Assembly: GCA_019894665.1 (NCBI GenBank)
Contig: JAGXOC010000002.1
Coordinates: 43,489 to 94,530 of the forward strand
Direction: 5' to 3'
Length of the DNA stretch: 51,042 bases
Source of the DNA: Candidatus Thorarchaeota archaeon
GTDB lineage: Archaea; Asgardarchaeota; Thorarchaeia; Thorarchaeales; Thorarchaeaceae
Shown here in pieces: positions 11,151 to 47,202 of the stretch (position 1 is its first letter; each line of letters starts with the position of its first letter). Below the pieces are notes generated by a model. It ran no database searches. It was not told the DNA's origin and saw only the letters and a program-made list of their open reading frames with translations. A program made the position numbers and the translations under genes.

Positions 11151-11222
11151 GATATTATCTCATCTCCGATAGCAACGCTAGAATTCGAGAGACGCTTCAG
11201 AACTGAAAAGGGTTTTGGAGGC

Positions 11223-11648: not shown

Positions 11649-11703
11649 GTAAAATCGGTTAATGATGCTTTAATTTCGTATAGCCTTAATAACCGTGTGT
11701 TAT

Positions 11704-12852: not shown

Positions 12853-12900
12853 ACAAAGTGTGGAGTTCTTTAGTACTCAGAGGAACGCATCTATGGATGA

Positions 12901-21675: not shown

Positions 21676-21676
21676 T

Positions 21677-23926: not shown

Positions 23927-23936
23927 CTAAATCACC

Positions 23937-25469: not shown

Positions 25470-25901
25470 CTAACGGAACCTCCTTCCGCGCCACTTTAGT
25501 GGCTCTCGGTCAAGTGTTTCAATTTTCTCAGGACCATATATGAGGTCTTCCCGGTCGCCCTCACTCATGTCGACGACGGGAGTGTGGAAGAGCGCTTCAA
25601 ATTTACAGGCTTGAACACATAGACCACAAAAGACACATCGAGTATAGTCAAAATAAAGAGCGCAATCTTTCTCATACTTCTTGTCTTCCTTGTCCATTCT
25701 TATAGCCACCACTGGACATATGCGGACACATTGTGCACAAGCCGTACAGGATTTACGAACGTGGATGTGTCTGCCTCTTGTCCGCTCAGGATATTCTCTA
25801 TCTTCGAAAGGATAGAAATACGTGAAGGGTCTCTTGAAGACCTGTCTGAATGTGTGTTTCAGAATCTGGAAAAAGTCACCTAATACACTGAAGAAACCCA
25901 T
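25470..25901 (-). CDS. nuoI: Complex I iron-sulphur subunit NuoI
   Basis: The protein (143 residues) has two 4Fe-4S motifs, CTACAQCVRICP and CVFCGLCVQACK. The last Cys of the second is followed by Lys rather than Pro. It lies on the peripheral arm next to NuoB and passes electrons towards the N2 cluster. An N-terminal amphipathic helix (FFQILKHTFRQVFKRPF) is typical for membrane contact. It lies three bases from the NuoH stop. Confidence 0.92.
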   Translation of the reverse strand: MGFFSVLGDFFQILKHTFRQVFKRPFTYFYPFEDREYPERTRGRHIHVRKSCTACAQCVRICPVVAIRMDKEDKKYEKDCALYFDYTRCVFCGLCVQACKFEALFHTPVVDMSEGDREDLIYGPEKIETLDREPLKWRGRRFR

Positions 25902-25904
25902 TTT

Positions 25905-28198: not shown

Positions 28199-28722
28199 TG
28201 GCTGTCACCTCCTGGTTCGGGTCGAGGTTTTGGTGGCGTTATTCCAGTCTCGTTCAGTCTGCTTCTGTCAGTCTGGAATCTCTTACGCATCGGATAAGCT
28301 CCATCCAGCTCATCAGGTAGTAGTAGAAGTCTTGGATCAGGATGATTCTTGACCTCGATTCCAAACATCTCTCGGACTTCCCTCTCATGCCATTCGAGTC
28401 CAGGAAAGATGTCACAGGTACTCTCTATCTCAGGTTTTTCACCCTCTAGAGAAACTCGCAATTGAAGTAGCAATCGACTAGTGTATGACCAGAAGATGTA
28501 GATGAGCTCGTATTGGTCATTCTCAAGGTCAACACCAAACATTGACTCAGGGAGAACATCTTGGATTTCCTCATCGATCAGTGTAACAACATCGCGTATC
28601 TTGTTGGCGGGAACAACAAGCTCAATCCTGTTATCGCCGAGAGGATTTGATGTAACTTCAGGAATCTTGTTAATGACTAATCTTCCGAAAGTGGAAGCAT
28701 TAGTTGTAGACGAGTCAGACAT
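28195..28722 (-). CDS. nuoC: Complex I 30-kDa-type subunit NuoC
   Basis: The protein has the diagnostic NuoC segment LEWHEREVREMFGIEVKNHPDPRLLLL followed by YPMRKRF (split by GAY). The open frame extends to 28755. I place the start at ATG 28722 because AAAGGAGG lies at the right distance upstream and the ATG follows the NuoK stop by one base (TAAGATG). The C-terminus (PKPRPEPGG) overlaps the NuoD start by four bases. It is a structural subunit of the peripheral arm. Confidence 0.92.
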   Translation of the reverse strand: MSDSSTTNASTFGRLVINKIPEVTSNPLGDNRIELVVPANKIRDVVTLIDEEIQDVLPESMFGVDLENDQYELIYIFWSYTSRLLLQLRVSLEGEKPEIESTCDIFPGLEWHEREVREMFGIEVKNHPDPRLLLLPDELDGAYPMRKRFQTDRSRLNETGITPPKPRPEPGGDSQ

Positions 28723-28723
28723 C

Positions 28724-29035
28724 TTATGGTTCCTCCTTTTGGATTGGTTGTCCAAGGTCCACTGTGTCGTATCGTCGGTTATACATCAGCATCAAGACCA
28801 GAGCCAAAGCAGTGTGAGCCGCTGCAACAGAGATAACGAGTATGATCAATCCTTGTCCTGTGAAAGTGAAGACTGGGCTATAGAGTGACATAGCCACAAG
28901 AGCGATGTTAACGCCATTACCCATGATTTCCGCACCAATGAGGATCCTGATGAGGTTCCTTTTGACCATCATGCCATAGCCGCCCAAACCTATCAACATG
29001 AATGCAAGAATAAGGTACCACGATAGAGGGACCAT
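28724..29035 (-). CDS. nuoK: Complex I membrane subunit NuoK
   Basis: This 103-residue, three-helix protein has the conserved buried Glu segment IRILIGAEIMGNGVNIALVA and a second-helix AAHTALALVLML. Start and NuoJ stop overlap by one base (TAATG at 29035). It belongs to the E-channel region of the membrane arm. Confidence 0.92.
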   Translation of the reverse strand: MVPLSWYLILAFMLIGLGGYGMMVKRNLIRILIGAEIMGNGVNIALVAMSLYSPVFTFTGQGLIILVISVAAAHTALALVLMLMYNRRYDTVDLGQPIQKEEP

Positions 29036-29679
29036 TATGCATCCACCTCCTCAGGTTCTTCAGCGGGTGGTTCTTCATCCACTGGAGATTCATCTTCTTC
29101 AATTGTAGGCTCAGCCTCTATGCCGAAGTCTCCACGAATGGATCCAATCTGTTCAGCTTTATCCATCTTCAAAAGAGCAATTGCCCCTACTAGTGAGGTG
29201 ACCATGATGAGTGCAATCATTTGCACATAGATGCCATTGTTAGCCCACAACCAAAGCGCAAGTTCATTCAGATCATTTGAGATTATTACAAAAGTCTCAT
29301 CAAATGACTCTGCCCACGGAAACAGTAATGCTAGGATACCAGAGAGTGCAGCGACAATAGCAGCAACCATTAATCCTATCCGTCGCTTTCTCTTCGATGC
29401 GAAAGTTTCCAAGGAGGAATCTTGGGCTCTTGGTAGTAGCAGGACTGCAAAGATAATGAGTGCACTGATTCCTCCTGTGTACACCGCTATCTGCATCCCT
29501 GCAATGAAAGGTGCCTCAAGTAAAAGGAAGAATCCAGCAACAAAAGATGCCATGAAACCAAAGAAGAATGCAGCATAGACTATCTCTTTGTGTTCAAGCG
29601 CGAGATATGCAAGAACCAACACAATACCAGCAATCAGGAGAAACTCTACCTGTTCAAAAGCTCCTTCAAAACCCTGCAC
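29035..29679 (-). CDS. nuoJ: Complex I membrane subunit NuoJ with acidic C-terminal tail
   Basis: This protein of about 214 residues has five membrane helices, including the conserved QIAVYTGGISALIIFAVLLL segment (positions as in the pi-bulge helix of NuoJ). The frame is open to 29760, but that would overlap nuoA by 80 bases. GTG 29679, preceded by GGAGGTCACTAAA and lying just after the NuoA stop, is the likely start. The last about 25 residues are mostly Glu, Asp and Pro (EEDESPVDEEPPAEEPEEVD), an unusual tail shared in style with the 30876-31448 protein. Confidence 0.9.
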   Translation of the reverse strand: MQGFEGAFEQVEFLLIAGIVLVLAYLALEHKEIVYAAFFFGFMASFVAGFFLLLEAPFIAGMQIAVYTGGISALIIFAVLLLPRAQDSSLETFASKRKRRIGLMVAAIVAALSGILALLFPWAESFDETFVIISNDLNELALWLWANNGIYVQMIALIMVTSLVGAIALLKMDKAEQIGSIRGDFGIEAEPTIEEDESPVDEEPPAEEPEEVDA

Positions 29680-29680
29680 T

Positions 29681-30136
29681 TTAGTGACCTCCTGCAGCAT
29701 GTGGTTCTTCTTTTCTTTCAGCCTTCGCCTTGCGATACGCCTCAAGGGTCTCTTCCCCATTAAGGAAAGATTGCGGGAGCATCTTCATTACGTAACCGAT
29801 TCCGCCCATGATGATCAACATGAAAACAATGACCTGCCACACAACTTCATACTTGGTTGCATCAGACCACAGGATGTTCGATGAAGAAAGAAGCCAGAGG
29901 AATGCACCCATCACATCAACGACGACGAAAAGAACAGTGTAGACGAAGTAATTGTAAGGGTAGGAAATCCTAGCCGGTCCTATGGGTTCTTCTCCACACT
30001 CATAAGTCGAAGTCTTCTCAGAGTTTTGAAGTACGTGAGGACGAAGTACCCATGATGCCAATAGCATCACTACAACTAGGACCACTGCAAGTAGGGCCCA
30101 TATCAAGACTGGGATGAAATCGAGAAACAACCTCAT
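29681..30136 (-). CDS. nuoA: Complex I membrane subunit NuoA
   Basis: The protein (151 residues) has three membrane helices and the conserved loop STYECGEEPIGPARISYPYNYF (split at SYP) whose Cys lies near the quinone cavity. It ends in a charged, His-rich tail. It is the first gene of the eleven-gene operon. AGGAG lies 11 bases upstream of ATG 30136. Confidence 0.92.
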   Translation of the reverse strand: MRLFLDFIPVLIWALLAVVLVVVMLLASWVLRPHVLQNSEKTSTYECGEEPIGPARISYPYNYFVYTVLFVVVDVMGAFLWLLSSSNILWSDATKYEVVWQVIVFMLIIMGGIGYVMKMLPQSFLNGEETLEAYRKAKAERKEEPHAAGGH

Positions 30137-30881: not shown

Positions 30882-31448
30882 AGTTTCAGCATCAGGCACT
30901 GGCTCACTTGAGGCTTCAGTTGTTTCCTCAACAGTGGGTTCAGTAGTTTCTTCCTCACCTGCGGATTCTACTTCAGGTTCAACTTCTTCTTCTACTTCAG
31001 GTTCAGGTTCTGGCTCGGGACCATAATGCAAAGCACTTGTGTCCAGAATACCAGGTGAGTAACTCTCCTCACGATTATGCATCATGGAAAAACCAGCAGC
31101 TGTGATTATGGAACCTCCTAGACCCCAACAGGAGAGGTACAGAGTTGTTCCTACTGAGGGAAGGGCCATTACAAACTGATCAATGAAAACAACAAAGAAG
31201 AAGCCAACAAGAACTGAGAGTGCCATCATCAGATTCTTGCCTTTTCCTTTTTCAGGTCGGAAGTATCCAATCAAGAAGAAAACTAAGAGAATGGACATCC
31301 CACCGATGAGAGTGAACGAACCTGCGATGACCAAGGACGCAGCTGGCATCAAGAATCCAAGATAGATAAAGTTGAAGATGAATGCTGTAAGTATGATCAA
31401 GCCAAGAAAGAGCATACAATACGGATCACTATCTTGCCTGAGTGACAT
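30876..31448 (-). CDS. Membrane protein with acidic tail, coupled to the GlcD-NuoB gene
   Basis: I do not recognise a family. The 190-residue protein has about five hydrophobic segments in residues 10-130, a basic loop (RPEKGKGKN), and a C-terminal tail of about 55 residues made of Glu, Pro, Val and Thr repeats. ATG 31448 overlaps the stop of the upstream GlcD-NuoB gene by one base (TAATG), so the two proteins are made together. Because the partner is a complex I subunit without its own membrane anchor, this protein is a candidate accessory subunit or docking protein. That is inference. Confidence 0.6.
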   Translation of the reverse strand: MSLRQDSDPYCMLFLGLIILTAFIFNFIYLGFLMPAASLVIAGSFTLIGGMSILLVFFLIGYFRPEKGKGKNLMMALSVLVGFFFVVFIDQFVMALPSVGTTLYLSCWGLGGSIITAAGFSMMHNREESYSPGILDTSALHYGPEPEPEPEVEEEVEPEVESAGEEETTEPTVEETTEASSEPVPDAETE

Positions 31449-33388
31449 TACTGCATCATCCCCATTGCATCTTGATTCTCGTATTTCTGCTGCCAGTGAG
31501 TTGTACCTGCACGAATCTTGTTCTGCAGGATCAGATGTGCTCTGATGAAGTCAGCTGGCTTTGGTGGACAACCCGGAAGATAAACGTCCACAGGTACTAT
31601 TTTGTCAGGTGGTGTTGCTAGGCTGTAGCCTTCCCAGAACAGCCCGCCTGAGGCGACGCACTGACCAAAGGCAATGACGAACTTTGGCTCTGGCATCTGC
31701 TCGTAGATACGTCTGAGTCTTGGGGCCATCTTCTTGGTCAATGAACCGGAGATCCATAGAACGTCAGTCTGTCTTGGACCGAAGAGTGGGAGCATTCCGA
31801 ATCTCTCAAAGTCCCAACGGGGTGCAATTCCTGCGGCACCATCAACCATGCAACAGCCAATACCGAACTGCATTGGCCATGGACTATGAGCTCTGCCCCA
31901 CCTAAGCATCCATTTCAACGGGGGTACATTCTGCAACCATTTCAGAAGTATTGGCGCTATTCGACCCCAGCCATTTCTGAATAGGTCGAAGAATATCCAC
32001 ATGAAGTATTTTCCGATTCTGAGAATGAATGGTAACCAGTAGGCGAAAATCTTGCCCGGATTTGAAATCTCATTCTTGTCCCATGTGAGCTTTGCCGATC
32101 TTATTCTAGAGAGTCGTTGTTTTCCAAAGTACTGTGAAGCATAATTAGCGAACCAAATTCCTGTTGAGTGGACATGGCCACCGTGACGTTGTGCGATTTT
32201 GAAGATGACAAAGCTTTGTGACCAAGAGAGCATGTAGAAGTGTCTTCGCTCATCTTCGAGGAAGTAGCCCATCATGGTGACCCCTGTCTTAGAGTTCACA
32301 TAACCGTCAATGCCAGCCTTAGCTGATGCTTGTTCAAACTGGAAGTCATCAAGTATTGCGACCAGATTCTCTAGGGGTGCGAACGCCTGACCAACGACAA
32401 GTGTTGGTCCCTTCTTCTTAATCTTCATCGGATAATAACGGTCGTGCCATTCATGTTCTGCAACGTCATCACCGTAGACGACTCCGCGGTACATCTCAGT
32501 GACCTCTTCGACCACCTTGATGCCCTCCTCTATCTCTTCCTCATCACCCTCATAGACAACCATGAGTGAGCAATGATGGGCAGGAATCGGGAATGGCTTC
32601 TCACCTTCCCAGATTGCCTTCTTGAGGTCTGTATACTTTGATTCTTCAAACTTGATGGTGAAGGGTAGTGGACCATCCTCGAGTATCTTCTCGATAGCTA
32701 AGACCATCTGATAGTTCTCTTCAAAACTGGAAACTATCACTTTCATTGGCATGAGGGTCTTGATCTTTAGAGTGACCTTTGTGATGATTCCAAGAATACC
32801 TTCGGTATCACAGAATAGGTCAATGTCCTTGGTCTTGACAATCTTCCCGGTTGGTAGTACAACTTCCAACATGACAACGTTTTCATTGATATTGCCATAT
32901 TTGAGAGACCCAATACCGTCCCCACCCTGGGCAACCCAGCCGCCGATTGTTGCTGAGAGACCTGACGAGGGATAACAACGGATATCCAAGCCCTTCTTGT
33001 TCAACTCAAACTGAAGATTAGCCCAAGAGATGCCAGGTTCAACAATGATGATCAGGTTCTCCTCATCAACTTCGAGGATGTTGTTCATACGGCGAGTATC
33101 TACTACGACGCCACCCTTTCGGGGTATAGCACCTCCGTAGCCTGAGGTACCAGCGCCTCGGGGAACGAGTGGTACTTTCTCCTTCTGAGCGAATTTGTAA
33201 AGAGCACTGATCTCCTCAGGAGTCAGTGGTTGGACAATGGCATCAGGGGTTGTGTTCATAAGCCAACCAACTTGCTTTGGTAGAGAACCGACGTCTAGGG
33301 CTGAGAGAATCAATTCATGCTTCTCTGTCAGCAAACGGTCACCAAAAATCTCAGCGAGTTTCTCGTTCTGCTTACGCTTCAGGACCAT
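31448..33388 (-). CDS. Fusion protein: GlcD-type FAD-linked oxidase plus complex I NuoB
   Basis: This single 646-residue frame combines two families. Residues about 45-215 are a PCMH-type FAD-binding domain (VPRGAGTSGYGG at 75-86, GGWVAQGGDGIGSL at 149-162); about 216-446 is the FAD-oxidase C domain, ending in NPGKIF. A hydrophobic linker (about 449-490) follows. Residues about 498-630 are NuoB, with SPWPMQFGIGCC, four cluster N2 ligands (Cys512, 513, 577, 607), RWDFERFGM and VPVDVYLPGCPP. No separate nuoB exists in the window. The oxidase part has lost the usual metal-site motifs (GHxGDGNxH reads GYFLEDERRH; GEHGIG is also broken), so its substrate is open. The start has GGAGAG eight bases upstream. 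No internal ATG before the NuoB part has a good ribosome-binding site. Confidence 0.9.
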   Translation of the reverse strand: MVLKRKQNEKLAEIFGDRLLTEKHELILSALDVGSLPKQVGWLMNTTPDAIVQPLTPEEISALYKFAQKEKVPLVPRGAGTSGYGGAIPRKGGVVVDTRRMNNILEVDEENLIIIVEPGISWANLQFELNKKGLDIRCYPSSGLSATIGGWVAQGGDGIGSLKYGNINENVVMLEVVLPTGKIVKTKDIDLFCDTEGILGIITKVTLKIKTLMPMKVIVSSFEENYQMVLAIEKILEDGPLPFTIKFEESKYTDLKKAIWEGEKPFPIPAHHCSLMVVYEGDEEEIEEGIKVVEEVTEMYRGVVYGDDVAEHEWHDRYYPMKIKKKGPTLVVGQAFAPLENLVAILDDFQFEQASAKAGIDGYVNSKTGVTMMGYFLEDERRHFYMLSWSQSFVIFKIAQRHGGHVHSTGIWFANYASQYFGKQRLSRIRSAKLTWDKNEISNPGKIFAYWLPFILRIGKYFMWIFFDLFRNGWGRIAPILLKWLQNVPPLKWMLRWGRAHSPWPMQFGIGCCMVDGAAGIAPRWDFERFGMLPLFGPRQTDVLWISGSLTKKMAPRLRRIYEQMPEPKFVIAFGQCVASGGLFWEGYSLATPPDKIVPVDVYLPGCPPKPADFIRAHLILQNKIRAGTTHWQQKYENQDAMGMMQ

Positions 33389-33717: not shown

Positions 33718-36700
33718 ATGAAGTCTTCTAAGAAACTATCAATTGTCATTATATTTTGTTTTCTTACCATTGTATTTTCAGGGGCCTATTCAGCTATAGG
33801 CAGACCTACTTTTACTAATGAGTGTGGGTCATCTGGGTGTCATGACACTCATACAATGACAATATCATCAAATGCTACTGGTCCTGTCAATGCCAATGTT
33901 GGCGTCAGCTTCACATTAGTTGTAGATGCAACATCAAATGATGGTGGTGCCAAATCGGGCGATATGGCAGTCGCAGTGTTGAGTGGATGGGCGGATAACA
34001 ACCAATTCTCGTTCACAGACCAGTCGATAATTGATGATGCGGCTGGAGATTCAAATGCGAATATCGCCGAGATGACTGTGACTTTTACTTTCACGCCCCT
34101 TAATGCTGGGTCTTGGACTCTTAGAATATGGACAGGTGCAAAAGGTGATCTGGCACAAGTCCTTGATGTGTCAGTGTCTGTCATATTAGCAGACTCTACT
34201 CCCCCTACAATTGACAGTCCCACAGACATGACAATCGATGAAGGAGATGTCACAAAGAGCATTACATGGAGTCCATCAGATGCAAATCCAAGCTCCTATG
34301 AGATTTTCGACGACAGTGTTTCTTGGCAGAGCGGCGTTTGGGGTGGTTCAACCATCACTGTGCAGCTTAGCTCACTTGGACTTGGGACTCACAACATAAC
34401 ACTCGCAGTTTGGGATGCAGTTGGTAATACCGCATGGGACCAGGTAGATGTTACTGTTGTCGATGGAACATTACCTCTCATAGACAGTCCTGCAAATGTG
34501 ACACACAGCGAGGGAGCCACTGGATACTCAATAACATGGGATCCAACAGATGTTCATCCGGTCAGCTACACAATCTATAGAGAAGGAACACCTGTGAAGT
34601 CAGGCGCATGGAATTCCAGCATTGAGACCATTACAATATCTGTAGATGGTCTTGCAGTTGGTACCTATAACTACACCATCGTAGCAACAGACGTTGGATC
34701 AAACACAGCTGTTGATACAGCGTACGTCATCGTCTATGACGGGACATCTCCAACTATAGATAGCCCAGCAGATGTATCATATGATGAGGGAGCAACTGGA
34801 TATTCTATCACATGGGACCCATCGGATGTGAATCCGGTCAGTTACATAATCTATAAAGATGCAGTACTAGTGAAATCAGGATCATGGAACTCAAGTTCGG
34901 AGACAATAAGCATTTCAGTCGATGGTCTTGCAGTGGGTTCATACAGTTACGTTTTGGAGGTGACTGACGTTGGTTCTAACACAGCTACTGACACAGTTGC
35001 TGTCATCGTTTCGGATGGCACAGTACCCACAATTGACAGTCCCATCGATATCACATATGATGAAGGAGTAACTGGATATTCCATCACATGGGACCCTTCA
35101 GACTTTAATCCTCAAAACTACACGATCTATAGGGATGGACTGGCTGTTAGATTCGGTTTATGGAATGCAAGTGTAGAAACTATCACAATCTCAGTCGACG
35201 GACTCTCTATGGGTTCATACACTTACATGCTTATTGTTGGTGATGTGGGTCTAAACACGGCATCAGATTCAGTTCTTGTCACTGTGCTTGACGGCACAAA
35301 CCCCACAATAGATAGTCCGATTGACCGGGATGTAGTCGAGGGTACAAGTGGCAATCAAATCACATGGAGTCCATATGACCTTCATCCGTCTTCTTACGAA
35401 ATCTATCGGGAAGATGTTCTTGTCAAATCAGGACTATGGAATAGCAGCTCAGAAACAATTACCTTCTCTGTTGATGGTCTCTCTTTGGGAGTCTATAACG
35501 TTACAATAGTTGTCTATGACACAACTTCAAGGGTAGCCATTGATACAGTGTATATCACTGTATATGACGGTACAACACCCGTCGTGGATAGCCCTGTAGA
35601 CATTGATTATCCAGAGGGGGATACAGGGTATTCTATAACTTGGGACCCTTCAGATCTACATCCAGTAAGTTATCAGATTCTGCGGGAAGGACTACCCGTA
35701 AAATCAGGTACATGGAACTCATCTAGTGAAACAATGACCGTTTCTGTTGATGGACTTTCAATTGGATCCTACAATTACACGATTGTGCTTGTCGATGTAG
35801 GTGGCAATACGATGACTGACGAAGTCACCGTTACAGTATACAATGCTGATGTGCCATCAATCAACCAACCAGCAAACCAGACTATTTCTGAGGGAGCTAC
35901 AGGTCTCTTCGTTACATGGAACCCATTGGACCTCAATCCATCATCATATGCAATTTACCAAGATGGAGTTCTTATGAAATCAGGTGCATGGAATTCTAGT
36001 TCTGAAACAATCAGTATATCGCTTGATGGATTAACACTCGGAACCTACAACTTCACAGCTCTAGTCACAGACCTTGACAGTAATACTGCAGCAGACACAG
36101 CGTGGGTCACCGTGGTCGATGGTACACCTCCAGTAATTGACAACCCTATTGACATCACTTACGATGAGGGAAGTCCTGGAGGAACTCTCACATGGAATCC
36201 AACCGACTTGCATCCAGTCAGCTATACGATCTACTTGGATGGTACTCCAGTCAAATCTGGACAATGGAACTCCAGTGGTGAGTCTATCTCGATATCAGTC
36301 AATGGACATCTAGTTGGGGATTATAATTACACAATTAGGGTCGTAGATGATGGAGGCAACTTTGGCATCGATACCGTATTCATCTATGTGTTGGACGGAA
36401 CACCCCCAACAATCGATACTCCTAGCGATATCAATTATAATGAGGGTGATGCTGGCGGGTCAATTACGTGGGATCCTTCGGATGCGTATCCAGTGAGTTA
36501 TGATATCTACAGAAATGAGGTTCTTGAGAAATCTGGTTTGTGGAACACCACTTCGGAGGCGATCTCCGTTTCTGTGACTGGTTTAGCTGTTGGACAATAT
36601 AACTTCACAATCATAGTGTATGATGTTGGTGGAAATTCTGTTTCAGACTTAGTTTGGGTCACAGTATCTGACGCAACACCTCCGACAATTGATACACCAA

Positions 36701-37953
36701 TTGATAGATCACTCAACGAAGGTCAATCTGGAGAAATAATCACATGGACTCCTGACGATCTGAATCCAACTGGTTATGAAATCTATATTGAAGATGTACT
36801 TGTGAGAATTGGTCAATGGAACTCGAGTTCAGAAACAATCTCGGTTTCACTTGACGGACTTGGATTAGGCATATACAACTTTACGCTGGTTGTCATTGAT
36901 ATTGGTCTGAACTCTGCAAATGATACCGTGTTGATAACTGTCCTTGATGGTACAGATCCAATAATCGATAGTCCTGCAGATGTCTACTATGGTGAAGGTG
37001 CAACTGAGTACAACATTACCTGGAATCCTTCAGATTTGCATCCAGTCAGCTACGAAGTCCTCCGTGAAGGTGTACAAGTCAAGACAGGTTTGTGGAACTC
37101 ATCTTCTGAAATCATAACAATCAATGTGGATGGTCTGATTCTGGGAACGTATAATTTCACAATCTATGTCTTGGACATTGGTGGAAACACAGCTAGTGAT
37201 ATAGTGTTCGTGTATGTTTCTGATGGCAGTGCTCCTACAGTAGATAGTCCTCCAGATGTGATCTACAACGAAGGCGATACTGGGTACTCCATAGTTTGGA
37301 ATCCAACAGATGCTCATCCATCAAGTTACGAAATCTATAGAGAAGATGTGCTTATTGTATCAGGATTATGGAATTCTTCTTCAGAATCAATCTCTGTATC
37401 GGTGGATGGTCACCAGTTTGGATCCTATAATTATACTGTCCTTGTGATTGATGTTGGAGGTAGTAGCGCACGCGATACTGTGTTTGTCTATGTTCAAGAT
37501 GGGACAGGACCAATAATCGATAGTCCTGCAGATGTCCTCTATATTGAAGGTGAAACCGGTCACACAATATCATGGAACCCATCTGATCTTCATCCAGCAA
37601 GTTATGAGATCTTCAGAGATGGCCTAGTAGTCAAATCAGGAGTATGGAACTCAAGCAGTGAAACGATATCGATTTCAGTAGATGGACTTTCCCCAGGAGA
37701 GTACAACTATACAGTTTCTGTAACAGACCTTGGAAGCAATTCTATTGCGGATCTGGTCATTGTCATGGTCGAAGCTGCAGCTACTTCATCAAATCCAACG
37801 ACTACTTCTCCATCAACTCAAACCACAACTTCTGAATCACCACCTCCACCAGCAATCCCAATGGAGCAGGTTTTGATTGTCATTTTGACTTGGGTTGGTA
37901 CTGGTGTTATTGTACTTCTGATTGCAGAAGGTATAATTCGAAAGACCCGCTAG
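33718..37953 (+). CDS. Surface protein 1: candidate haem c motif (CX4CH), 13 repeats, membrane anchor
   Basis: From ATG 33718 (longer frame to 33685 less likely) the 1411-residue protein has a signal peptide (about 1-26) and then ECGSSGCHDTH with Cys36, Cys41 and His42, a CX4CH motif able to bind haem c. A beta domain of about 120 residues follows, then thirteen repeats of 92 residues with the pattern P-x-I-D-S-P ... EG ... I-T-W-x-P-S-D ... SG-x-WNSS-x-E. A Thr/Ser/Pro stalk and a membrane helix ending in IIRKTR close the chain. Many Asn-x-Ser/Thr sites suggest glycosylation outside the cell. The layout recalls bacterial choice-of-anchor V proteins (CxxCH next to an Ig-like domain). The function is unknown. 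Confidence 0.8.
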   Translation: MKSSKKLSIVIIFCFLTIVFSGAYSAIGRPTFTNECGSSGCHDTHTMTISSNATGPVNANVGVSFTLVVDATSNDGGAKSGDMAVAVLSGWADNNQFSFTDQSIIDDAAGDSNANIAEMTVTFTFTPLNAGSWTLRIWTGAKGDLAQVLDVSVSVILADSTPPTIDSPTDMTIDEGDVTKSITWSPSDANPSSYEIFDDSVSWQSGVWGGSTITVQLSSLGLGTHNITLAVWDAVGNTAWDQVDVTVVDGTLPLIDSPANVTHSEGATGYSITWDPTDVHPVSYTIYREGTPVKSGAWNSSIETITISVDGLAVGTYNYTIVATDVGSNTAVDTAYVIVYDGTSPTIDSPADVSYDEGATGYSITWDPSDVNPVSYIIYKDAVLVKSGSWNSSSETISISVDGLAVGSYSYVLEVTDVGSNTATDTVAVIVSDGTVPTIDSPIDITYDEGVTGYSITWDPSDFNPQNYTIYRDGLAVRFGLWNASVETITISVDGLSMGSYTYMLIVGDVGLNTASDSVLVTVLDGTNPTIDSPIDRDVVEGTSGNQITWSPYDLHPSSYEIYREDVLVKSGLWNSSSETITFSVDGLSLGVYNVTIVVYDTTSRVAIDTVYITVYDGTTPVVDSPVDIDYPEGDTGYSITWDPSDLHPVSYQILREGLPVKSGTWNSSSETMTVSVDGLSIGSYNYTIVLVDVGGNTMTDEVTVTVYNADVPSINQPANQTISEGATGLFVTWNPLDLNPSSYAIYQDGVLMKSGAWNSSSETISISLDGLTLGTYNFTALVTDLDSNTAADTAWVTVVDGTPPVIDNPIDITYDEGSPGGTLTWNPTDLHPVSYTIYLDGTPVKSGQWNSSGESISISVNGHLVGDYNYTIRVVDDGGNFGIDTVFIYVLDGTPPTIDTPSDINYNEGDAGGSITWDPSDAYPVSYDIYRNEVLEKSGLWNTTSEAISVSVTGLAVGQYNFTIIVYDVGGNSVSDLVWVTVSDATPPTIDTPIDRSLNEGQSGEIITWTPDDLNPTGYEIYIEDVLVRIGQWNSSSETISVSLDGLGLGIYNFTLVVIDIGLNSANDTVLITVLDGTDPIIDSPADVYYGEGATEYNITWNPSDLHPVSYEVLREGVQVKTGLWNSSSEIITINVDGLILGTYNFTIYVLDIGGNTASDIVFVYVSDGSAPTVDSPPDVIYNEGDTGYSIVWNPTDAHPSSYEIYREDVLIVSGLWNSSSESISVSVDGHQFGSYNYTVLVIDVGGSSARDTVFVYVQDGTGPIIDSPADVLYIEGETGHTISWNPSDLHPASYEIFRDGLVVKSGVWNSSSETISISVDGLSPGEYNYTVSVTDLGSNSIADLVIVMVEAAATSSNPTTTSPSTQTTTSESPPPPAIPMEQVLIVILTWVGTGVIVLLIAEGIIRKTR
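34198..37779 (+). repeat. Thirteen tandem 276-bp coding repeats
   Basis: Successive units begin with Thr-x-Pro-x-Ile-Asp at an exact spacing of 276 bases (92 codons) for most units, and the region spans almost exactly 13 units. Protein sequence is conserved (ITWDPSD, WNSSSETI, VDGL, YNYTI, D-x-GGN), while DNA sequence varies at third positions, so the array is old enough to have diverged and is kept by selection on the protein. Confidence 0.85.
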
Positions 37954-38000
37954 ATGTTCAAAGCCAACTTATACCAAAGAAATCGGGAGTTGAAAATTAG

Positions 38001-38070
38001 GAGCTCATGAACAGAGCCGCTTACAGTCTGTAGCGTGGAAACTAGTAAGATAAAGACCTAGCGAGAGAAT
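38001..38070. repeat. 70-base upstream element, copy B (orphan)
   Basis: This is the second copy of the 33401-33470 element, in the same orientation, about 86 percent identical by eye. It lies between surface protein 1 and surface protein 2 and has no minus-strand gene to drive, unlike copy A. The remainder of the 37954-38269 gap is AT-rich with the TATA-like box described at 38205. Confidence 0.75.
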
Positions 38071-38204
38071 GGGAAAGTAACAAAATTCGAATCTTCTCAA
38101 GATACTTGACCATAATTTGAGATGATTTTATGACACTTTCAAAGTGAAACTTCTATCGATTTTTATTTACATTTCTAACATTTCTTGAATCATTTTGAAG
38201 TATG

Positions 38205-38213
38205 CTTATATAA
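38205..38213 (+). promoter_or_regulatory. TATA-like box for surface protein 2
   Basis: CTTATATAA matches the archaeal TATA consensus very well and is about 57 bases upstream of ATG 38270. Surface protein 3 follows after one base and likely shares this promoter. Confidence 0.5.
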
Positions 38214-38269
38214 CCAAATTTTGCAGGCGCTCATCCGTGTAGGGCACACTACGATTGAGGACCATAAAC

Positions 38270-40543
38270 ATGAACCAAAGGACAAGGGCCAAACTTGGAA
38301 TCACAGCTGCTTTTGCACTTCTTCTTTTTCTTGGAGCTACCGCAGCAATTGCAGAACCGGATTTCACTGCTGAATGTGGAGGGTGTCATTCTGTTCACCC
38401 CGCTTATTCGATGACCTCAAATGCAACTGGAACAGTCAATGCATACATTGGAATTCCATTCACTTTAACGATTGATTCCTCTCGACCTGCAATGGGTGGG
38501 GGTAGGTTCTTCTTCAGTATTCAGAGTGGTTGGGCGAATAATGATAACTTCACTTTTACTCCAACCCTTGTTGAGGATAATCAAGACGGAGACTTAGATT
38601 CATCGGTATGGACAATTTCTGTAGAAGTCACTTTCACACCACAAAGCCTTGGATCATATACAATCAGAGCATGGTGTGCATCAGAAACTGGATCAAGGAG
38701 TATTGATATCGCGGTGGATGTTGGAGAATCAGTCCCACCTACTATAGATAGTCCTCCAGATATGCAGGTGTCCGAAGGGAACATGTCAGCATATGTAACA
38801 TGGAATCCAACCGACACATATCCGGACAGGTATGAAGTTTATGACAACGAGGTCTTATCTTCGAGTGATGCATGGAACGGTTCGTCAATCACAATTGGAC
38901 TTGGTACTCTCTCGTTGGGAAATCACAATCTAACAATAGTTGTGTTTGATACGTCTGATAATATTGCAACAGACCAAGTGGATGTCTTAGTAGTTGATGC
39001 TGTTTTACCTGTCATAAACCACTTAGACAACACTACGATATCAGAGGGAACCTTAGCATCCCTGGAGTGGTCACCCTCAGACCTTAATCCTTCAAGTTTC
39101 GAATTGTATAGAGAAGAGAGCCTCATAGATTCAGGCATATGGAGCGGGGGTAATATTACTTCATCCCTCGTAGGTTTGACAATTGGGGAGTACAACTACA
39201 CAGTTGTCGTTTTTGATACAAGTGGAAACTCAGCTTCAGATACAACCTTTGTCACAGTAATTGATGATACGTTGCCCATTATTGATAATCCAGATGATAT
39301 TGAGTACTCAGAGGGCTCAACTGGAAATACAATCGTATGGGTTGCCTCTGATCAGAATCCAAGTACATTCACCATTTACAGAGATGAGATTATCATACGA
39401 TCAGATGCATGGACTGGGGCTCCAATTCTTCAATCAATCGATGGACTAGCAATAGGTGTCTACAATTACACAGTAGTAGTCACGGACACTAGCGGAAATT
39501 GGGTTTCAGATGAAGTGAATGTCACAGTGATATTCCCACCAGAACCGACTCTTGACCATCCAGCTGATCAGATAATAGACGAAGGCTCGACAGACAATTG
39601 GATCAATTGGATGCCAGATGATGTAGACCCCTCAAGGTATGAGATTTACCAAGACAGTATTCTGATCAAATCGGGACTATGGAACTCGAGTTCTGAAACA
39701 ATCTCAATATCCATTGATGGATTATCTGCTGGAGTTTATGACTTTGAACTCATTGTCTATGATGATCTAGATCACACAGCAACAGACTTAGTAATAGTGA
39801 TCGTGAATGATGTTACAACACCAACAATTGACTCACCAAGTGACTTCGCAATTAATGAAGGTGATATCGGTCAGATCATAGCCTGGGCCCCAGGTGACTC
39901 AAACCCTATTTTCTATGAGATCCAAATTGATGGTGTGTTGGTATGGTCAGGACTATGGAATTCCAGCGTAGAATCAATCATAGCATCATGTGATGGTCTA
40001 GTATACGGAACACATGTTTTCACGATAATCGTTACTGATGTTGGAGATAATTCAGTATCTGATGAAGTCACAATTACTGTTCTTGATGGAACAGCACCAA
40101 TTGTGAATAGTCCCGCAGATATTGTCTATCAGGTTGCAACCACAGGTCACAACATTACCTGGATACCTTCAGATGCTCATCCATCTCTGTTCATTATTGA
40201 GATCAATGGAGTAGTCATTCTATCTGGTGGATGGGATGGACAACCGATATTCATCAATGTAGATTGGTTGAGTGAAGGATCTTACGAATACACACTCACT
40301 GTTTTCGATAGTGGAGGGAACACTGAAACGGACATTGTGATTGTAACTGTAACAATTGATGACCCATCTGCAACAACAACAACAGAGACCACCACAGCAA
40401 CCACAACAAGTCCGGGATCAGGAATTCCGGTTAATGATGATGAACAAACGGAAGCTGCAACATTTAGCGCGGTCATGCTTTCAATGGGAATAATCATTGG
40501 TGTGCTTGGAATACTCTTGCTTGTAGACCGAAGGAGGCGCTAA
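38270..40543 (+). CDS. Surface protein 2: candidate haem c motif (CXXCH), 6 repeats, membrane anchor
   Basis: ATG 38270 gives a 757-residue protein (the frame also opens at TTG 38255). Signal peptide about 1-28; then AECGGCHSVHP with a canonical CXXCH (Cys36, Cys39, His40) and nearby His43 and Met48 as possible axial ligands. A beta domain follows, then six repeats of about 90 residues of the same family as in protein 1, a Thr-rich stalk (ATTTTETTTATTT), a membrane helix (LSMGIIIGVLGILLLV) and a basic end. It should sit on the outer face of the membrane. Haem attachment would need a Ccm system; a CcmF-type gene is at the right end of the window. Confidence 0.8.
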   Translation: MNQRTRAKLGITAAFALLLFLGATAAIAEPDFTAECGGCHSVHPAYSMTSNATGTVNAYIGIPFTLTIDSSRPAMGGGRFFFSIQSGWANNDNFTFTPTLVEDNQDGDLDSSVWTISVEVTFTPQSLGSYTIRAWCASETGSRSIDIAVDVGESVPPTIDSPPDMQVSEGNMSAYVTWNPTDTYPDRYEVYDNEVLSSSDAWNGSSITIGLGTLSLGNHNLTIVVFDTSDNIATDQVDVLVVDAVLPVINHLDNTTISEGTLASLEWSPSDLNPSSFELYREESLIDSGIWSGGNITSSLVGLTIGEYNYTVVVFDTSGNSASDTTFVTVIDDTLPIIDNPDDIEYSEGSTGNTIVWVASDQNPSTFTIYRDEIIIRSDAWTGAPILQSIDGLAIGVYNYTVVVTDTSGNWVSDEVNVTVIFPPEPTLDHPADQIIDEGSTDNWINWMPDDVDPSRYEIYQDSILIKSGLWNSSSETISISIDGLSAGVYDFELIVYDDLDHTATDLVIVIVNDVTTPTIDSPSDFAINEGDIGQIIAWAPGDSNPIFYEIQIDGVLVWSGLWNSSVESIIASCDGLVYGTHVFTIIVTDVGDNSVSDEVTITVLDGTAPIVNSPADIVYQVATTGHNITWIPSDAHPSLFIIEINGVVILSGGWDGQPIFINVDWLSEGSYEYTLTVFDSGGNTETDIVIVTVTIDDPSATTTTETTTATTTSPGSGIPVNDDEQTEAATFSAVMLSMGIIIGVLGILLLVDRRRR

Positions 40544-40544
40544 G

Positions 40545-42845
40545 TTGAAGAAATCATTCAAGTCCTTAGTCCTTCCATCACTTGCGCTACTGATTATTCT
40601 GCTTACAGGTGCATCGATGGTGATAGCTGACCCGAATTTAACAGCGGAGTGTGGTGGCAGCAGTTGTCACAGTACAATATCCCTCACAATCTCCTCAAAC
40701 GCTACAGGGACAGTGGATGCATCTCTTGGTGAACCTTTCAACCTCATTATTGACGCTGGAGGTTACACTAGAAGCGACCAAGCATTCTATGTGAATATTG
40801 AACCTAGTTGGGCAGATAATAATCAATTCTCTTTCACAACCACTTCTATACAGGATAATGCTACGGGTGATCTCAACTCCAACCTGAACGAGATTTCCAT
40901 CTCAGTAGATTTCACTCCGACATCAATCGGGGCATATACAATTAGAATCTGGACGGCTGGAAAGAATGATGTAGCGGGAAGCTTGGATGTTGCAGTGTCA
41001 GTTACAGTGAATGATGTCGCACCACCTGTAATCGATAGTCCTGTAGACAAGATAGTATCAGAGGGCGACAGTTCAGCAAATATAACTTGGAATCCGAGTG
41101 ATGCCTATCCAGACCGATACGAGATATTTGATAATATGACAAGTTGGTTATCAGGGAGCTGGGATGGAAGTGCTATCGTTGTTGGCTTAGACACACTATC
41201 TCTTGGATCACATAATATCACACTTGCTGTGTATGATATCGTTGACAACATGGCATCAGACCAAGTTGATGTCACGGTCATTGATGATACCCCACCAATA
41301 ATTACACCATTAGAGAACCAAGAAGTTGAGGAAGGGGCTCTGGTTTGGTTAACATGGACAGTTACTGATTTACATCCTGATTCCTATGAAATTTGGCGGA
41401 ATGATGTATCTATTGATTCAGGGGTTTGGGATGGTAGTGACATTTCCACTCCATTGAGCAGTGTTGGACTCGGTTTTTACAATTACACACTCTACGTGAG
41501 TGACGCAAGCAGCAATTCAGTAACAAGCCAAGTCAATGTCACGATTGTTGATGGAACCGCTCCGCTGGTTGATAGTCCACCAGATATAACATACCTAGAA
41601 GGGCAAACGGGTTACTCAATCGTTTGGACCCCGACAGACACTCATCCAAGCAGTTATGAGATACTAAGGAATGGAACGGTAATTCTTGAGGGAGACTGGA
41701 ATTCAACAGGAGAATCAGTTTCTGTTAATGTTGATGGGCTTGCCAAGAACACCTACAACTTCACATTCATTGCTTTTGATGTTGGAGGCAACTTTGTTAC
41801 AGATGAAGTGTTTGTTTCAGTGTTCAGTGCCGTGATTCCATATGTGAATCACCCTGATGATTTACACATTAGTGAAGGTACGTTGGGCACAGAAATAATT
41901 TGGTCTCCAATCGATTTGAATCCATTAAGTTATGAAATCTACAGAGATGAAGTTCTAATTAGATCTGGCTCTTGGAATACTAGTGGTGAAGTTATGGTAC
42001 TTCTAGTAGAAGGATATGCTCTTGGCGACTACAACTTCACAATCTTTGTAATTGATACAGACACAAATAACGCAACCGATACGGTTTGGGTTACTGTTTA
42101 CGATGGCACTTTGCCGACAATTAACTCACCCATTGACATAACATATGATGAGGGTCAGATTGGATTCGAAATTTCATGGACACCTTCAGATCTGCACCCA
42201 CAGTTTTATACAATCTATAGAAACACGATCGAACTCCAATCAGGACCATGGAATTCCTCTTCTGAAATTATCACCATCCAAGTTGGAAGTCTCAGTTATG
42301 GGGATTATAATTACACGATCAGTGTACTTGATGTTGGAGGTAACCTAGTATCTGATGAAGTGGAAGTGTTCGTCCTTGATGGAACTCCACCCGTTCTTGA
42401 TAGTCCAGCAGATATTCAGTATGAACAATTGACGACTGGAAACGGAATCACTTGGAATCCATCAGATATCAATCCGATTAGCTATTCAATAATCAGAAAT
42501 GGAACAGTTGTAAACTCCGGTGGATGGATTGGGTCATCAATTTTCATTCTTGTCGATTGGCTCATACCCGGCTCATACAACTTCACAATAATCGTAACTG
42601 ACATCGATGGAAATAGTGCCAGTGATACAGTCATGGTTATTGTAACGCCATCTGCCACTTCAACGGAAACAAGCACTACCTCTACAACAACGTCTGTAAC
42701 TACTCCTTCACCGACTCAACCAGATGATTCTATATTTGATGACGTCGCTATCGCACCTTTCGCTCTTATCGTTGGAACATGGGTAGGATTGATACTTGTG
42801 GTCGTAATTGTCTCGGAGGTCCTTGCCAGGAAAGGAAAATGGTAG
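40545..42845 (+). CDS. Surface protein 3: candidate haem c motif (CX4CH), 6 repeats, membrane anchor
   Basis: The protein (766 residues) starts with TTG at 40545, set by AAGGAGG about seven bases upstream; its stop-start gap to protein 2 is one base. Signal peptide about 1-28, then AECGGSSCHST with Cys36, Cys41 and His42 (CX4CH), at the same position as in proteins 1 and 2. A beta domain and six repeats follow, then a Ser/Thr stalk and a membrane helix ending in LARKGKW. First and last repeats resemble those of protein 2 (YPDRYE; GW-x-G with VDWL), so the two are sister copies. No second His or Met lies close to the motif, leaving the axial ligand open. Confidence 0.8.
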   Translation: MKKSFKSLVLPSLALLIILLTGASMVIADPNLTAECGGSSCHSTISLTISSNATGTVDASLGEPFNLIIDAGGYTRSDQAFYVNIEPSWADNNQFSFTTTSIQDNATGDLNSNLNEISISVDFTPTSIGAYTIRIWTAGKNDVAGSLDVAVSVTVNDVAPPVIDSPVDKIVSEGDSSANITWNPSDAYPDRYEIFDNMTSWLSGSWDGSAIVVGLDTLSLGSHNITLAVYDIVDNMASDQVDVTVIDDTPPIITPLENQEVEEGALVWLTWTVTDLHPDSYEIWRNDVSIDSGVWDGSDISTPLSSVGLGFYNYTLYVSDASSNSVTSQVNVTIVDGTAPLVDSPPDITYLEGQTGYSIVWTPTDTHPSSYEILRNGTVILEGDWNSTGESVSVNVDGLAKNTYNFTFIAFDVGGNFVTDEVFVSVFSAVIPYVNHPDDLHISEGTLGTEIIWSPIDLNPLSYEIYRDEVLIRSGSWNTSGEVMVLLVEGYALGDYNFTIFVIDTDTNNATDTVWVTVYDGTLPTINSPIDITYDEGQIGFEISWTPSDLHPQFYTIYRNTIELQSGPWNSSSEIITIQVGSLSYGDYNYTISVLDVGGNLVSDEVEVFVLDGTPPVLDSPADIQYEQLTTGNGITWNPSDINPISYSIIRNGTVVNSGGWIGSSIFILVDWLIPGSYNFTIIVTDIDGNSASDTVMVIVTPSATSTETSTTSTTTSVTTPSPTQPDDSIFDDVAIAPFALIVGTWVGLILVVVIVSEVLARKGKW

Positions 42846-42956
42846 CAATCTTAGAACTGAATAGTTCCAATGTTGATAAAATCTGAAGTGGAAAGATTTT
42901 AAGGTGCCTTGCACCGGTCCTCATCCATCAGTCACAAGTCGTGGAGACCAAAAACT

Positions 42957-44183
42957 ATGGACTTCCCAGCACTGAACGAACATAACCTTCAGGAATACGC
43001 CTTTACTTGTGCTCAATGTAGTTTTTGCCAAGTTGGGCATGGTGCTTGTCCGACGTACAAAGTGAAACGTCGGGATAGTTATTCTGGTAAAGGCAAGATG
43101 ATGTTGACCAGAGCTTTAATGCAGGGACGACTGAGACCATCTGAAGGTCTCGAAGGTCTCCGAGATGCAGTCTTTGGCTGCACTCTCTGTGGTGGCTGTG
43201 AAGAGGTCTGTCAGGTAGATATTCCCTTCGTGAAAATCTATCAGGTGTTGAGATCCGATTTCCAGAAACGCGGGATGTGGCCCGAAGAACTTGAGATGGC
43301 AAAAGAGACTCTGTTGAAGACCTTCAACATCCAAGGTCAAGCTCAGATGGACCGAATCGAAGGATGGTCCTATTGGCATCCCAACGAGGATGACGTTCTT
43401 GATAAACAAGGAACCCCAGCAAAGACTGCTTTCTTCTTTGGTTGTGCTTCATCCTTCAGGGGTGTTTCGATCCAAGCCACAATTGCTACAACTCTCGTCA
43501 TGGATAAGATAGGTGAGAGTTACACTATTCTTGGTGAAGAGGAGTATTGCTGCGGCGCGCCCATGATCATGACTGGTGACTTTGAAGCAGCGAGGGCTTT
43601 AGCTGAACACAACATCGAAGCCTACAAGAAGCTTGGAGTAGAAAGGATATTCACAAATTGCCCCGGATGTTACAAGATGTGGGCTCATGAGTATCATGAG
43701 TTCTTGGGTATTGATCATGGCTTTGAGATACTATACGGTGCTCAATATTTCGCAGACCTAATAGACAAAGGAAAGCTCACAGGCATGAACACGCCACTCG
43801 ACATGACCGTAACGTTCCATGATGGCTGTGACGCTGGAAGAAACGCTGGTTTCTATGAAGAGCCAAGAAAAGTCCTCGAACATTTACCAGGTGTCACATT
43901 TGAAGAGCTCCCACACAACAAAGCTAACAGCTTCTGCTGTGGTTCTGGTGGTGTCCTCAGAGCTGTAGATGCTGATTTCGCACTTGAAATCAACAAACTC
44001 AAGGTCGAGGACATTGAAGCAACGAATGCGAATGTGGTTGCATCTGCATGTCCCTCTTGTGTTGACTTCATGCATGATCAATTACCTCAAGCTGGTTCCA
44101 GTAAAACAGTGAAGGACCTAGCAGTCTTGGTTGCAGAGTCAATGGGTCTAACCTGGGATGGGCTCGATGAGATTTACGGTTGA
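42957..44183 (+). CDS. GlcF/HdrD-like iron-sulphur protein with two CCG domains
   Basis: The protein (408 residues from ATG 42957, GGAG upstream) has two N-terminal 4Fe-4S motifs: Cys18, 21, 24 and 31, with six instead of three residues before the last Cys, and Cys75, 78, 81 and 85 in the regular form. Two CCG domains follow: GCASS ... YCCGAP ... NCPGC, and DGCDAGR ... SFCCGSGG ... ACPSC. HdrD uses such domains to cleave heterodisulphide, GlcF and LutA to pass electrons from a GlcD-type flavoprotein. No signal peptide is seen, so it is cytoplasmic. It could partner the FAD domain of the GlcD-NuoB fusion; the genes are not adjacent. Confidence 0.88.
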   Translation: MDFPALNEHNLQEYAFTCAQCSFCQVGHGACPTYKVKRRDSYSGKGKMMLTRALMQGRLRPSEGLEGLRDAVFGCTLCGGCEEVCQVDIPFVKIYQVLRSDFQKRGMWPEELEMAKETLLKTFNIQGQAQMDRIEGWSYWHPNEDDVLDKQGTPAKTAFFFGCASSFRGVSIQATIATTLVMDKIGESYTILGEEEYCCGAPMIMTGDFEAARALAEHNIEAYKKLGVERIFTNCPGCYKMWAHEYHEFLGIDHGFEILYGAQYFADLIDKGKLTGMNTPLDMTVTFHDGCDAGRNAGFYEEPRKVLEHLPGVTFEELPHNKANSFCCGSGGVLRAVDADFALEINKLKVEDIEATNANVVASACPSCVDFMHDQLPQAGSSKTVKDLAVLVAESMGLTWDGLDEIYG

Positions 44184-45512: not shown

Positions 45513-45516
45513 TGAG

Positions 45517-46014: not shown

Positions 46015-47070
46015 CTAATCATGAGGCAAAGCTGCAGCCTTGGCTTTTTTCTCAGTGAATATGTAGAATCCTGATGCGATAGTTATGCATACAATTCCCC
46101 AAATTAGAACGCATATTGGTTCTCGTCCAAGTCCAATCATGACGTAAGACCAAGCTAGGAACAGACCTGTAAAAAGGTGATTCGCTACCGTACTTGCATA
46201 AGCAGGCGTGAGTGGAAGTGGTTGGTCATAATGTGTTAAGGCTGTGCGTGTGGCTAGAACAGCGATAGGCAAAGTCGCTACACCTAGAATAGTATACCAA
46301 CTTACGAGATTCAAAAGTATTGGAATTAACATTGAAAGATAAAGGGAAATCATGAGGACCGCATATCCCTTTGCAGCACGCTGACGGCCCAGACGAACAA
46401 CGATTGTTCTCTTACCAGCGTCTCTGTCAGCATCGTGATCTGGAAACTCGTTGATATACAGAACTGCTGTAATCAGGATAGCCACAGGAATCGATGGAAC
46501 CACAGCCTCCCAAGCTAATATCTGAGTCTGTACGAAAAATGCTCCGAGAGTCATGAGAACTCCAAAGTTCAAACCAATGAACACTTCACCATATCCTCGA
46601 CTGACGAAGCGGAATGGTGGTGCAGTATAGAAGAAACCTGATCCTATACCGATGACCCCGAGTATCAGGACTTCAATGCCTCTTGTGTATGCAAGATAGA
46701 CCCCAATCCCTCCACCAAGTACAAAGAAGACCATAGCCTCAGCAAAGACCTCGCGGGGGGACATCCATCCTCGCTGAATCATCCGACTTCCGCCGGTAAA
46801 TGGACGTACAAAATCAACGTTGGTATCGTCAGTCCCACTTAGGTGGTCATAATAATCATTAGCGATATTGGAGCCAATGTGAATGAATACTCCAGCAATC
46901 AGTGTCATTAAGAATACATCAAGAAGGAATATCCCACTATACGCCCAAGCAACGCACGTACCCAAAATGACTGGTACAATAGCAGCAGTTAGAAATGGTG
47001 CTCTCATCTCAGCAAGCCAGATTCGTACTTTTGCTGGTTTTTCTAGAGTTTCATCAGCACTGGAATTCAT
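46015..47070 (-). CDS. UbiA-superfamily prenyltransferase, MenA-like
   Basis: The protein (about 351 residues from ATG 47070; the longer frame to 47199 would overlap the divergent gene) has both Asp-rich prenyl-diphosphate motifs, NDYYD and DHDADRDAGKRT. It also has TGGSRMIQRG, typical of MenA (1,4-dihydroxy-2-naphthoate polyprenyltransferase), and about eight membrane helices. Proteins of this superfamily also make archaeal lipids or haem side chains, but the SRMIQ region and the divergent long-chain polyprenyl synthase favour menaquinone synthesis. Confidence 0.8.
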   Translation of the reverse strand: MNSSADETLEKPAKVRIWLAEMRAPFLTAAIVPVILGTCVAWAYSGIFLLDVFLMTLIAGVFIHIGSNIANDYYDHLSGTDDTNVDFVRPFTGGSRMIQRGWMSPREVFAEAMVFFVLGGGIGVYLAYTRGIEVLILGVIGIGSGFFYTAPPFRFVSRGYGEVFIGLNFGVLMTLGAFFVQTQILAWEAVVPSIPVAILITAVLYINEFPDHDADRDAGKRTIVVRLGRQRAAKGYAVLMISLYLSMLIPILLNLVSWYTILGVATLPIAVLATRTALTHYDQPLPLTPAYASTVANHLFTGLFLAWSYVMIGLGREPICVLIWGIVCITIASGFYIFTEKKAKAAALPHD

Positions 47071-47202
47071 GGTATGCACCCGATTATGGCACAACCTTTC
47101 CTCACATAGAAAAAGCTTGCCTTTCAAACCACGCTTGCAGAAGAAAGGTAACTGCTTTAAGGTGCTTACGATTAGAAGAAAAATATCTAGGTGTATCATC
47201 TA

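Follow-up and report, generated by a model that had tools for sequence, protein, structure and literature searches.

The 51,042-nucleotide stretch of Candidatus Thorarchaeota DNA analysed here (GenBank assembly GCA_019894665.1, contig JAGXOC010000002.1, forward-strand positions 43,489 to 94,530; hereafter the window) lies on contig C222 of a host genome of 3.04 Mb in 442 contigs. It carries three tandem open reading frames (ORFs), all on the + strand, with secreted products of 1411, 757 and 766 amino acids (aa), each composed of a signal peptide, an N-terminal immunoglobulin (Ig)-like domain with a C..CH motif, a stalk of Ig-like repeats, a Thr-rich linker and a transmembrane (TM) anchor. Surface protein 1 (33718..37953, ATG start) has a CX4CH domain (33799..34185, motif CGSSGCH at 33823-33843) and 13 repeats. 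Surface protein 2 (38270..40543 from the ATG at 38270, or from a TTG at 38255) has a CX2CH domain (38354..38722, CGGCH at 38375-38389) and 6 repeats, and surface protein 3 (40545..42845, TTG start), which begins directly 3' of the protein 2 stop codon, has a CX4CH domain (40629..41012, CGGSSCH at 40650-40670) and 6 repeats. These starts place the first motif Cys of each protein at residue 36. The first-pass annotation of this DNA had described three tandem surface proteins with a signal peptide, a Cys36 motif, repeats, a Thr-rich stalk and an anchor, and this was confirmed by the ORFs, hydropathy and Pfam; the motif spacings it had given, CXXCH in protein 2 and CX4CH in proteins 1 and 3, were also borne out.

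The N-terminal signal-like segment, and the Thr-rich linker followed by a single C-terminal hydrophobic helix and basic residues, were recognized in all three proteins by hydropathy only, and the predicted placing of the haem-attachment domain is the outer face of the membrane. The predicted mature N-terminus lies a few residues ahead of the motif, typically at X-Pro (RP, EP, DP). The repeats are about 92 aa long, those of protein 1 (34192..37752, ends approximate) being spaced by 90-92 aa, and are matched by PKD/Ig-like Pfam models, with PF22352 above cut-off in all three proteins. With their tandem Ig/PKD-like repeats, predicted signal peptide and predicted anchor, the proteins are of the archaeal Ig-repeat surface protein type. 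N-glycosylation sequons number 29, 13 and 18 in proteins 1, 2 and 3, respectively. The motif cysteines are the only cysteines of mature proteins 1 and 3, and protein 2 has two extra ones (136 and 574). A 276-bp DNA unit with 74% matches is found in the repeats of protein 1 at 34510-35096; as these first repeats are still that much alike, repeat copy number may change by recombination. Each protein has one haem motif, so that the several motifs expected of a multihaem cytochrome or conductive filament are absent.

The N-terminal domain is about 125 aa long. An AlphaFold2 model of the protein 3 domain, built with 15 sequences, is a beta sandwich (predicted local distance difference test, pLDDT, 86.6; predicted template modelling score, pTM, 0.81) in which the motif precedes the first beta strand. 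The motif and the adjacent beta domain of the first-pass annotation are thus both present, but they form a single domain and not two separate ones. Wherever a Thor-type domain ORF extends far enough to cover the motif region, the motif is present (47 of 47 distinct ORFs: 25 CX2CH, 3 CX3CH and 19 CX4CH), and a C..CH pattern kept in every complete Thor-type homologue is more than chance. In the 15-sequence alignment the mean column identity is 51%, and C8, C13, H14, F37, N64, F67, D76, D81, T96, P97 and G101 are invariant. The closest solved folds are Ig-like/macroglobulin (VIA, Z 11.2, root-mean-square deviation 2.6, 107 aa), with complement/macroglobulin domains and antibodies among the listed matches; such fold likeness says nothing on function. 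A Reeler structure was not listed in this search, which excludes nothing. No Pfam or NCBIfam model names the domain, whole-protein scans having named the repeats only; the domain profile had no match among PDB sequences, and a scan of IMG/VR gave no relative. Membership of the choice-of-anchor V family (NF041895, cut-off 42 bits) was not supported, since the full-length window proteins had no match at E<=1, one of five N-terminal domains matched at E 0.008 and the nearest relatives scored 30-35 bits.

The first-pass annotation had proposed a search for the N-terminal domain in related genomes. All relatives of the domain that carry a taxon name are Thorarchaeota, which makes the host a Thorarchaeon. 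Among 227 Asgard genomes the domain was found in 25, a number raised to 27 by a second profile, and it takes at least four architectures: (i) long stalks as in the window proteins; (ii) a short stalk of one repeat, with tandem pairs in L044 and L045; (iii) a minimal form of about 200 aa with domain, linker and TM helix; and (iv), or class IV, a fusion protein of about 410 aa that joins the domain, together with a second Ig-like stretch, to a four-helix membrane module. The domain is carried on 0, 1, about 6 or 13 repeats, which supports the earlier proposal of a haem held on a stalk whose length varies. CX2CH and CX4CH are mixed across these classes, and CX3CH is seen in class IV. The host genome has at least six copies, namely five from the first search (two of them paralogues beyond the three in the window) and a class IV copy at L064:1913-3124. 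The four-helix module has three invariant His and is, by inference from its sequence, haem-b-like. It matched no Pfam family above cut-off, giving only E~0.01 matches to Cytochrom_B561 and DUF420 (Cytochrom_B561 matched one of 13 members, at E 0.008), and had no convincing PDB relative by sequence; the AlphaFold model of a class IV protein was too weak for a fold search (pLDDT 66, pTM 0.40). As a side observation, this module, which is found at L064:14510-14917 and as the C-terminal part of class IV proteins, could be a new family of membrane haem-b proteins linked to GlcD/CCG dehydrogenases.

The first-pass annotation had named a lack of c-type cytochrome maturation (Ccm) in the genome as one of two findings that would speak against haem, and Ccm genes were found. 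The window itself ends in a gene for CcmF, the cytochrome c haem lyase, cut by the contig end (49567..51042, - strand; PF01578 E 7e-13, TIGR00353 E 3e-29), and host contig C221 encodes CcmA and CcmB (by eye), CcmC (PF01578, E 1e-28) and CcmE (E 2e-7), the last with the motif CPSRY of the archaeal CxxxY type. Across the phylum the domain and Ccm occur together. When Ccm presence was scored by PF01578, the 227 genomes were divided into 23 with both, 2 with the domain only, 16 with Ccm only and 186 with neither (Fisher p=5e-19); in the same order the counts were 17/1/1/19 within the family (p=1.6e-8) and 10/0/0/6 within the genus (p=1.2e-4), and the second domain profile gave 24/3/15/185 over all the genomes (p=4e-19). 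Because the genomes share ancestry, these p-values overrate their independence; the presence/absence switch inside one genus is still informative.

Relatives of the domain in a Loki-like family (f20) are stalked (about 1518 aa), minimal or fused to the four-helix module, and they lie beside CcmA, B, C, E and F. Their motifs are HX2CH (6), HX3CH (1), HX4CH (4), TLGCH or TLSCH (3) and CXXGH (two proteins), so that the first Cys is usually swapped for His while the 2-4 spacing is kept. Secreted HX2-4CH proteins lie by Ccm genes at L062:914-5467(-), L076:1444-2133, L076:2127-2807, L135:9151-9807, L136:7201-11757(-), L140:816-1502 and L143:7292-7984. The two stalked CXXGH relatives (L060:8707-10050 and 10278-12977), in which the second Cys is lost and the His kept, are near two CcmF-like genes. 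HX2-4CH together with Ccm suggests, as far as sequence can tell, a haem held by a single thioether, an attachment that has until now been described from euglenozoan mitochondria alone (motifs AAQCH and FAPCH; PMC8262978); the same residues equally fit a metal site. It may tentatively be proposed that the domain founds an Asgard cytochrome family spanning one- and two-thioether attachment, the single-Cys form being made by a prokaryotic System I, in which the haem sits on a variable stalk as a tethered extracellular carrier.

The genes around the three ORFs are those of a respiratory island. Divergent from the block and conserved beside it is a GlcD-like flavin adenine dinucleotide (FAD) dehydrogenase fused to complex I NuoB (31448..33388, - strand), which is preceded by a complex I run of NuoN, M, L, M-like, I, H, D, C, K, J and A (18542..30136, - strand; subunits named by eye). 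Downstream of the block are an HdrD/GlcF/TfrB-like iron-sulphur protein with CCG domains (42909..44183, + strand) and MenA, a 1,4-dihydroxy-2-naphthoate polyprenyltransferase of menaquinone synthesis (46015..47199, - strand; TIGR00751 132 bits, cut-off 102), a match which indicates that menaquinone or a similar quinone is probably made. Two PPOX-type (pyridoxamine oxidase/F420-like) proteins, the second recognized by eye, are encoded between the CCG gene and MenA (44235-46002); the first is fused to a DUF7530 membrane region, and similar ORFs are present in the Ccm-negative congener L145. The order of complex I ending in GlcD-NuoB, one to three divergent stalked proteins and an HdrD/GlcF-like CCG gene recurs in the window, L044, L045, L051, L055 and others. 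In Ccm-negative Thorarchaeota (L145 of the same genus, and L147-L150) GlcD-NuoB adjoins the CCG gene with a gap of at most about 220 bp, and MenA-like and prenyl synthase-like genes then follow; the 9.1-kb window block hence sits exactly in a conserved junction. Further, in L145 a geranylgeranyl reductase gene is followed by a 312-aa ORF and MutS, and not by CcmF. The GlcD-NuoB fusion is a possible direct flavin input to archaeal complex I, no NuoEFG being seen within the window. It was considered as part of the stalked-protein trait and rejected, because the full-length fusion is found in most of the 41 sampled family genomes, including Ccm-negative ones.

A second locus recurs in L064 and L087, with the order mostly kept in several more genomes. 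It runs multihaem cytochrome, class IV protein, GlcD, CCG, FAD protein, CCG, GlcD, minimal domain protein, DUF2231 protein, CCG, GlcD, four-helix protein, GlcD, CCG and CcmA, B, C and E. The multihaem cytochrome (L064:212-1555, - strand) has a C-terminal helix and a mixture of CX2CH, CX4CH and CX5CH-like motifs, is NrfA/C554-like and is conserved in most Ccm-positive Thorarchaea. Over 505 kb flanking domain genes, 62 GlcD, 63 CCG, 22 four-helix, 14 DUF2231, 7 CcmF and 8 CcmB ORFs were counted, as against 2 GlcD, 2 CCG and none of the other four in 338 kb of control DNA taken from a subset of these genomes, a density of GlcD and CCG about 20 times that of the control. The GlcD and HdrD-like proteins suggest a possible oxidation of 2-hydroxy acids.

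These results make it probable, with a good deal of room for doubt, that the products of the three genes are c-type cytochromes with one haem each, tethered to the cell and belonging to a quinone-linked respiratory island; that the proteins carry covalent haem at all is a somewhat safer prediction, and a likely one. All three predicted proteins have the CXnCH (n=2-4) pattern of a c-type cytochrome matured by Ccm (System I), and the genome encodes CcmA, B, C and E and a partial CcmF. What the sequences show is the anatomy, the conserved motif, the Ccm genes, the co-occurrence and synteny with Ccm and the dehydrogenases, and the empty site of Ccm-negative relatives; haem attachment, partners, the direction of electron flow and the role of the stalk in setting reach are interpretation. 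The protein would be exported and anchored by its C-terminal helix, the Ig-repeat and Thr-rich stalk keeping the N-terminal domain off the membrane; Ccm would then attach one haem c covalently through the cysteines of CX2/CX4CH, with the adjoining His as proximal ligand. The haem domain may swap single electrons by collision. Its partners on the cell side could be membrane proteins of the haem-b-like four-helix or the DUF2231 kind, together with the multihaem cytochrome of the second locus. These would be fed from menaquinone by complex I (with GlcD-NuoB) and by GlcD/HdrD-type dehydrogenases, menaquinol being the likely donor by way of the membrane proteins and the multihaem cytochrome. On the outer side the haem domain could meet an extracellular acceptor, a partner cell or a further redox protein of the cell surface. 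At about 4 nm per domain, an extended run of 6 or 13 Ig domains would span roughly 25-50 nm. Electron conduction along the stalk was considered and rejected, since the repeats of the three window proteins contain no cofactor motif; electrons cannot run along them and the haem must act by contact. Any exchange of electrons with minerals, cells or partners, as suggested in the first-pass annotation, would have to proceed by tethered contact, since a single haem cannot conduct along a stalk tens of nm long. The stalk would thus set reach, giving carriers of graded length, with minimal and fused forms at the membrane and long forms passing through the cell envelope.

A number of observations weigh against this assignment. 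The haem is inferred from sequence and not seen, and the fold search listed no cytochrome, including no cytochrome f, which excludes none. The motif sits in a weakly modelled, poorly ordered N-terminal arm (pLDDT 56-67), too low to decide on the other counter-indication named in the first-pass annotation, a buried disulphide with no haem pocket. No distal His or Met is conserved in the 15-sequence alignment, so that a sixth ligand may be absent; a candidate for it is the N-terminal amine, as in cytochrome f, since a short X-Pro N-terminus lies ahead of the motif. No haem b synthase was found above cut-off in any of 18 genomes; for AhbD there were only sub-threshold radical-SAM matches, in Ccm-positive and Ccm-negative genomes alike, which is uninformative. 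No electron partner was identified, above all for the stalked forms, and the co-occurrence with Ccm could in part reflect gain and loss of the whole island. The strongest point against a purely Ccm-dependent reading comes from G154 (L168; 93% complete) and G162 (L158), which have no detected CcmE or PF01578 yet retain the domain with the motifs NDNCH and CNCH, respectively, fused to the four-helix module beside GlcD/CCG genes. Cys-His is thus not strictly tied to Ccm.

These two genomes lend weight to an explanation that is on the whole unlikely, namely that what is bound at the C..CH site is a metal (copper, iron or zinc) or a non-covalent haem, in a redox or metal-handling surface protein merely sharing an island with Ccm. 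The HX2-4CH of the relatives would be a good set of metal ligands, and the lack of a distal haem ligand would also be accounted for, whereas the strict CX2-4CH of every complete Thor copy, in spacings allowed for haem c, the tight co-occurrence with Ccm inside one genus and the joint absence of the stalk block and CcmF from a congener all speak for haem c. The proteins could also be ordinary Ig-repeat adhesins, their cysteines forming a structural disulphide and the His being incidental. The PKD/Ig-like repeats, the Ig-like fold of the domain, the weak likeness to choice-of-anchor V and the lack of cysteines beyond the motif in mature proteins 1 and 3 would all agree with this, but Thor copies never vary in the His that follows the second Cys, and the Loki-like relatives mostly drop the first Cys and keep Cys-His, the reverse of what a disulphide would lead one to expect. 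Such an adhesin also gives no reason for the co-occurrence with Ccm and dehydrogenases, and we regard it as improbable. More improbable still is that the domain belongs to the maturation machinery, as a haem chaperone or an apocytochrome holder replacing CcmH, and is not its client. Class IV and HXnCH genes do adjoin CcmF, CcmC or CcmE in several genomes, and archaeal System I is reported to lack CcmH (PMC4429474, citing Allen 2006). On the other hand, at least five paralogues per genome, some of them long-stalked, are a better fit for clients, and in the Loki-like Ccm genomes, where the multihaem cytochrome of Thorarchaea had no match, no clients are evident other than the domain proteins. 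No clear clustered CXXCH pair was found there either, three isolated matches being read as chance or zinc-ribbon-like, and single-haem CXXCH proteins elsewhere in these genomes are not excluded. Overall, the haem c interpretation of the first-pass annotation is partly supported.

Tethered one-haem cytochromes of the kind favoured here have partial parallels. The closest precedent is the group of predicted monohaem cytochromes c of Ignicoccus hospitalis (Igni_0579/0759 and Igni_1052; cluster 38, Kletzin et al. 2015, PMC4429474). These are likewise archaeal, with a CxxCH close to the N-terminus and ahead of a beta-sandwich for which the reelin-N domain of F-spondin was the modelling template, a C-terminal TM helix in one and no clear distal ligand, in an organism that has Ccm; however, no Ig-repeat stalk, tandem array, CX3/CX4CH or four-helix fusion is described there (PMC4429474). 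The S-layer proteins MHC-A/B of anaerobic methanotrophic archaea (ANME) are also archaeal surface cytochromes with a C-terminal TM helix, and MHC-B adjoins its own CcmF (Chadwick et al. 2022, PMC9012536), but they hold tens of haems as a conduit, whereas the present proteins have one haem site and a non-conducting Ig stalk. The stalked Loki-like relatives resemble choice-of-anchor V (NF041895) at 30-34 bits across the domain, below the cut-off of 42. In eukaryotic CYBDOM proteins (Reeler-DOMON-cytochrome b561; SDR2/CG8399; PMC10691727) an extracellular beta-sandwich is followed by a b561 membrane module, as may be compared with class IV. Their extracellular haem is instead of b-type and lies in DOMON, and the likeness to the archaeal proteins is one of architecture, homology not being shown. 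The Reeler domain of CYBDOM proteins is not known to contain a CXnCH.

Asgard archaea, which are related to the ancestor of the eukaryotes, have mostly been drawn as fermenters or as hydrogen/formate syntrophs. One Thorarchaeal genome study has stated that extracellular cytochrome is lacking (PMC8072921), and other screens have counted only proteins with >3 CXXCH motifs (PMC9723726); screens with such a threshold, or with CXXCH-only patterns, would miss one-haem CX4CH proteins. No description of Thorarchaeal c-type cytochromes or Ccm was found in the literature, of which coverage was partial and gives no proof of absence. If the proteins bear haem, the HX2-4CH relatives would offer a prokaryotic model for single-thioether cytochromes, and in part of the Thorarchaea a possible electron route would lead from complex I and menaquinone out to the surface of the cell. 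This may explain how electrons pass to the outside in a lineage reported to be without extracellular cytochromes. Respiration, or the passing of electrons to partners, would hence become testable in these archaea, and this would bear on syntrophy models of the origin of eukaryotes.

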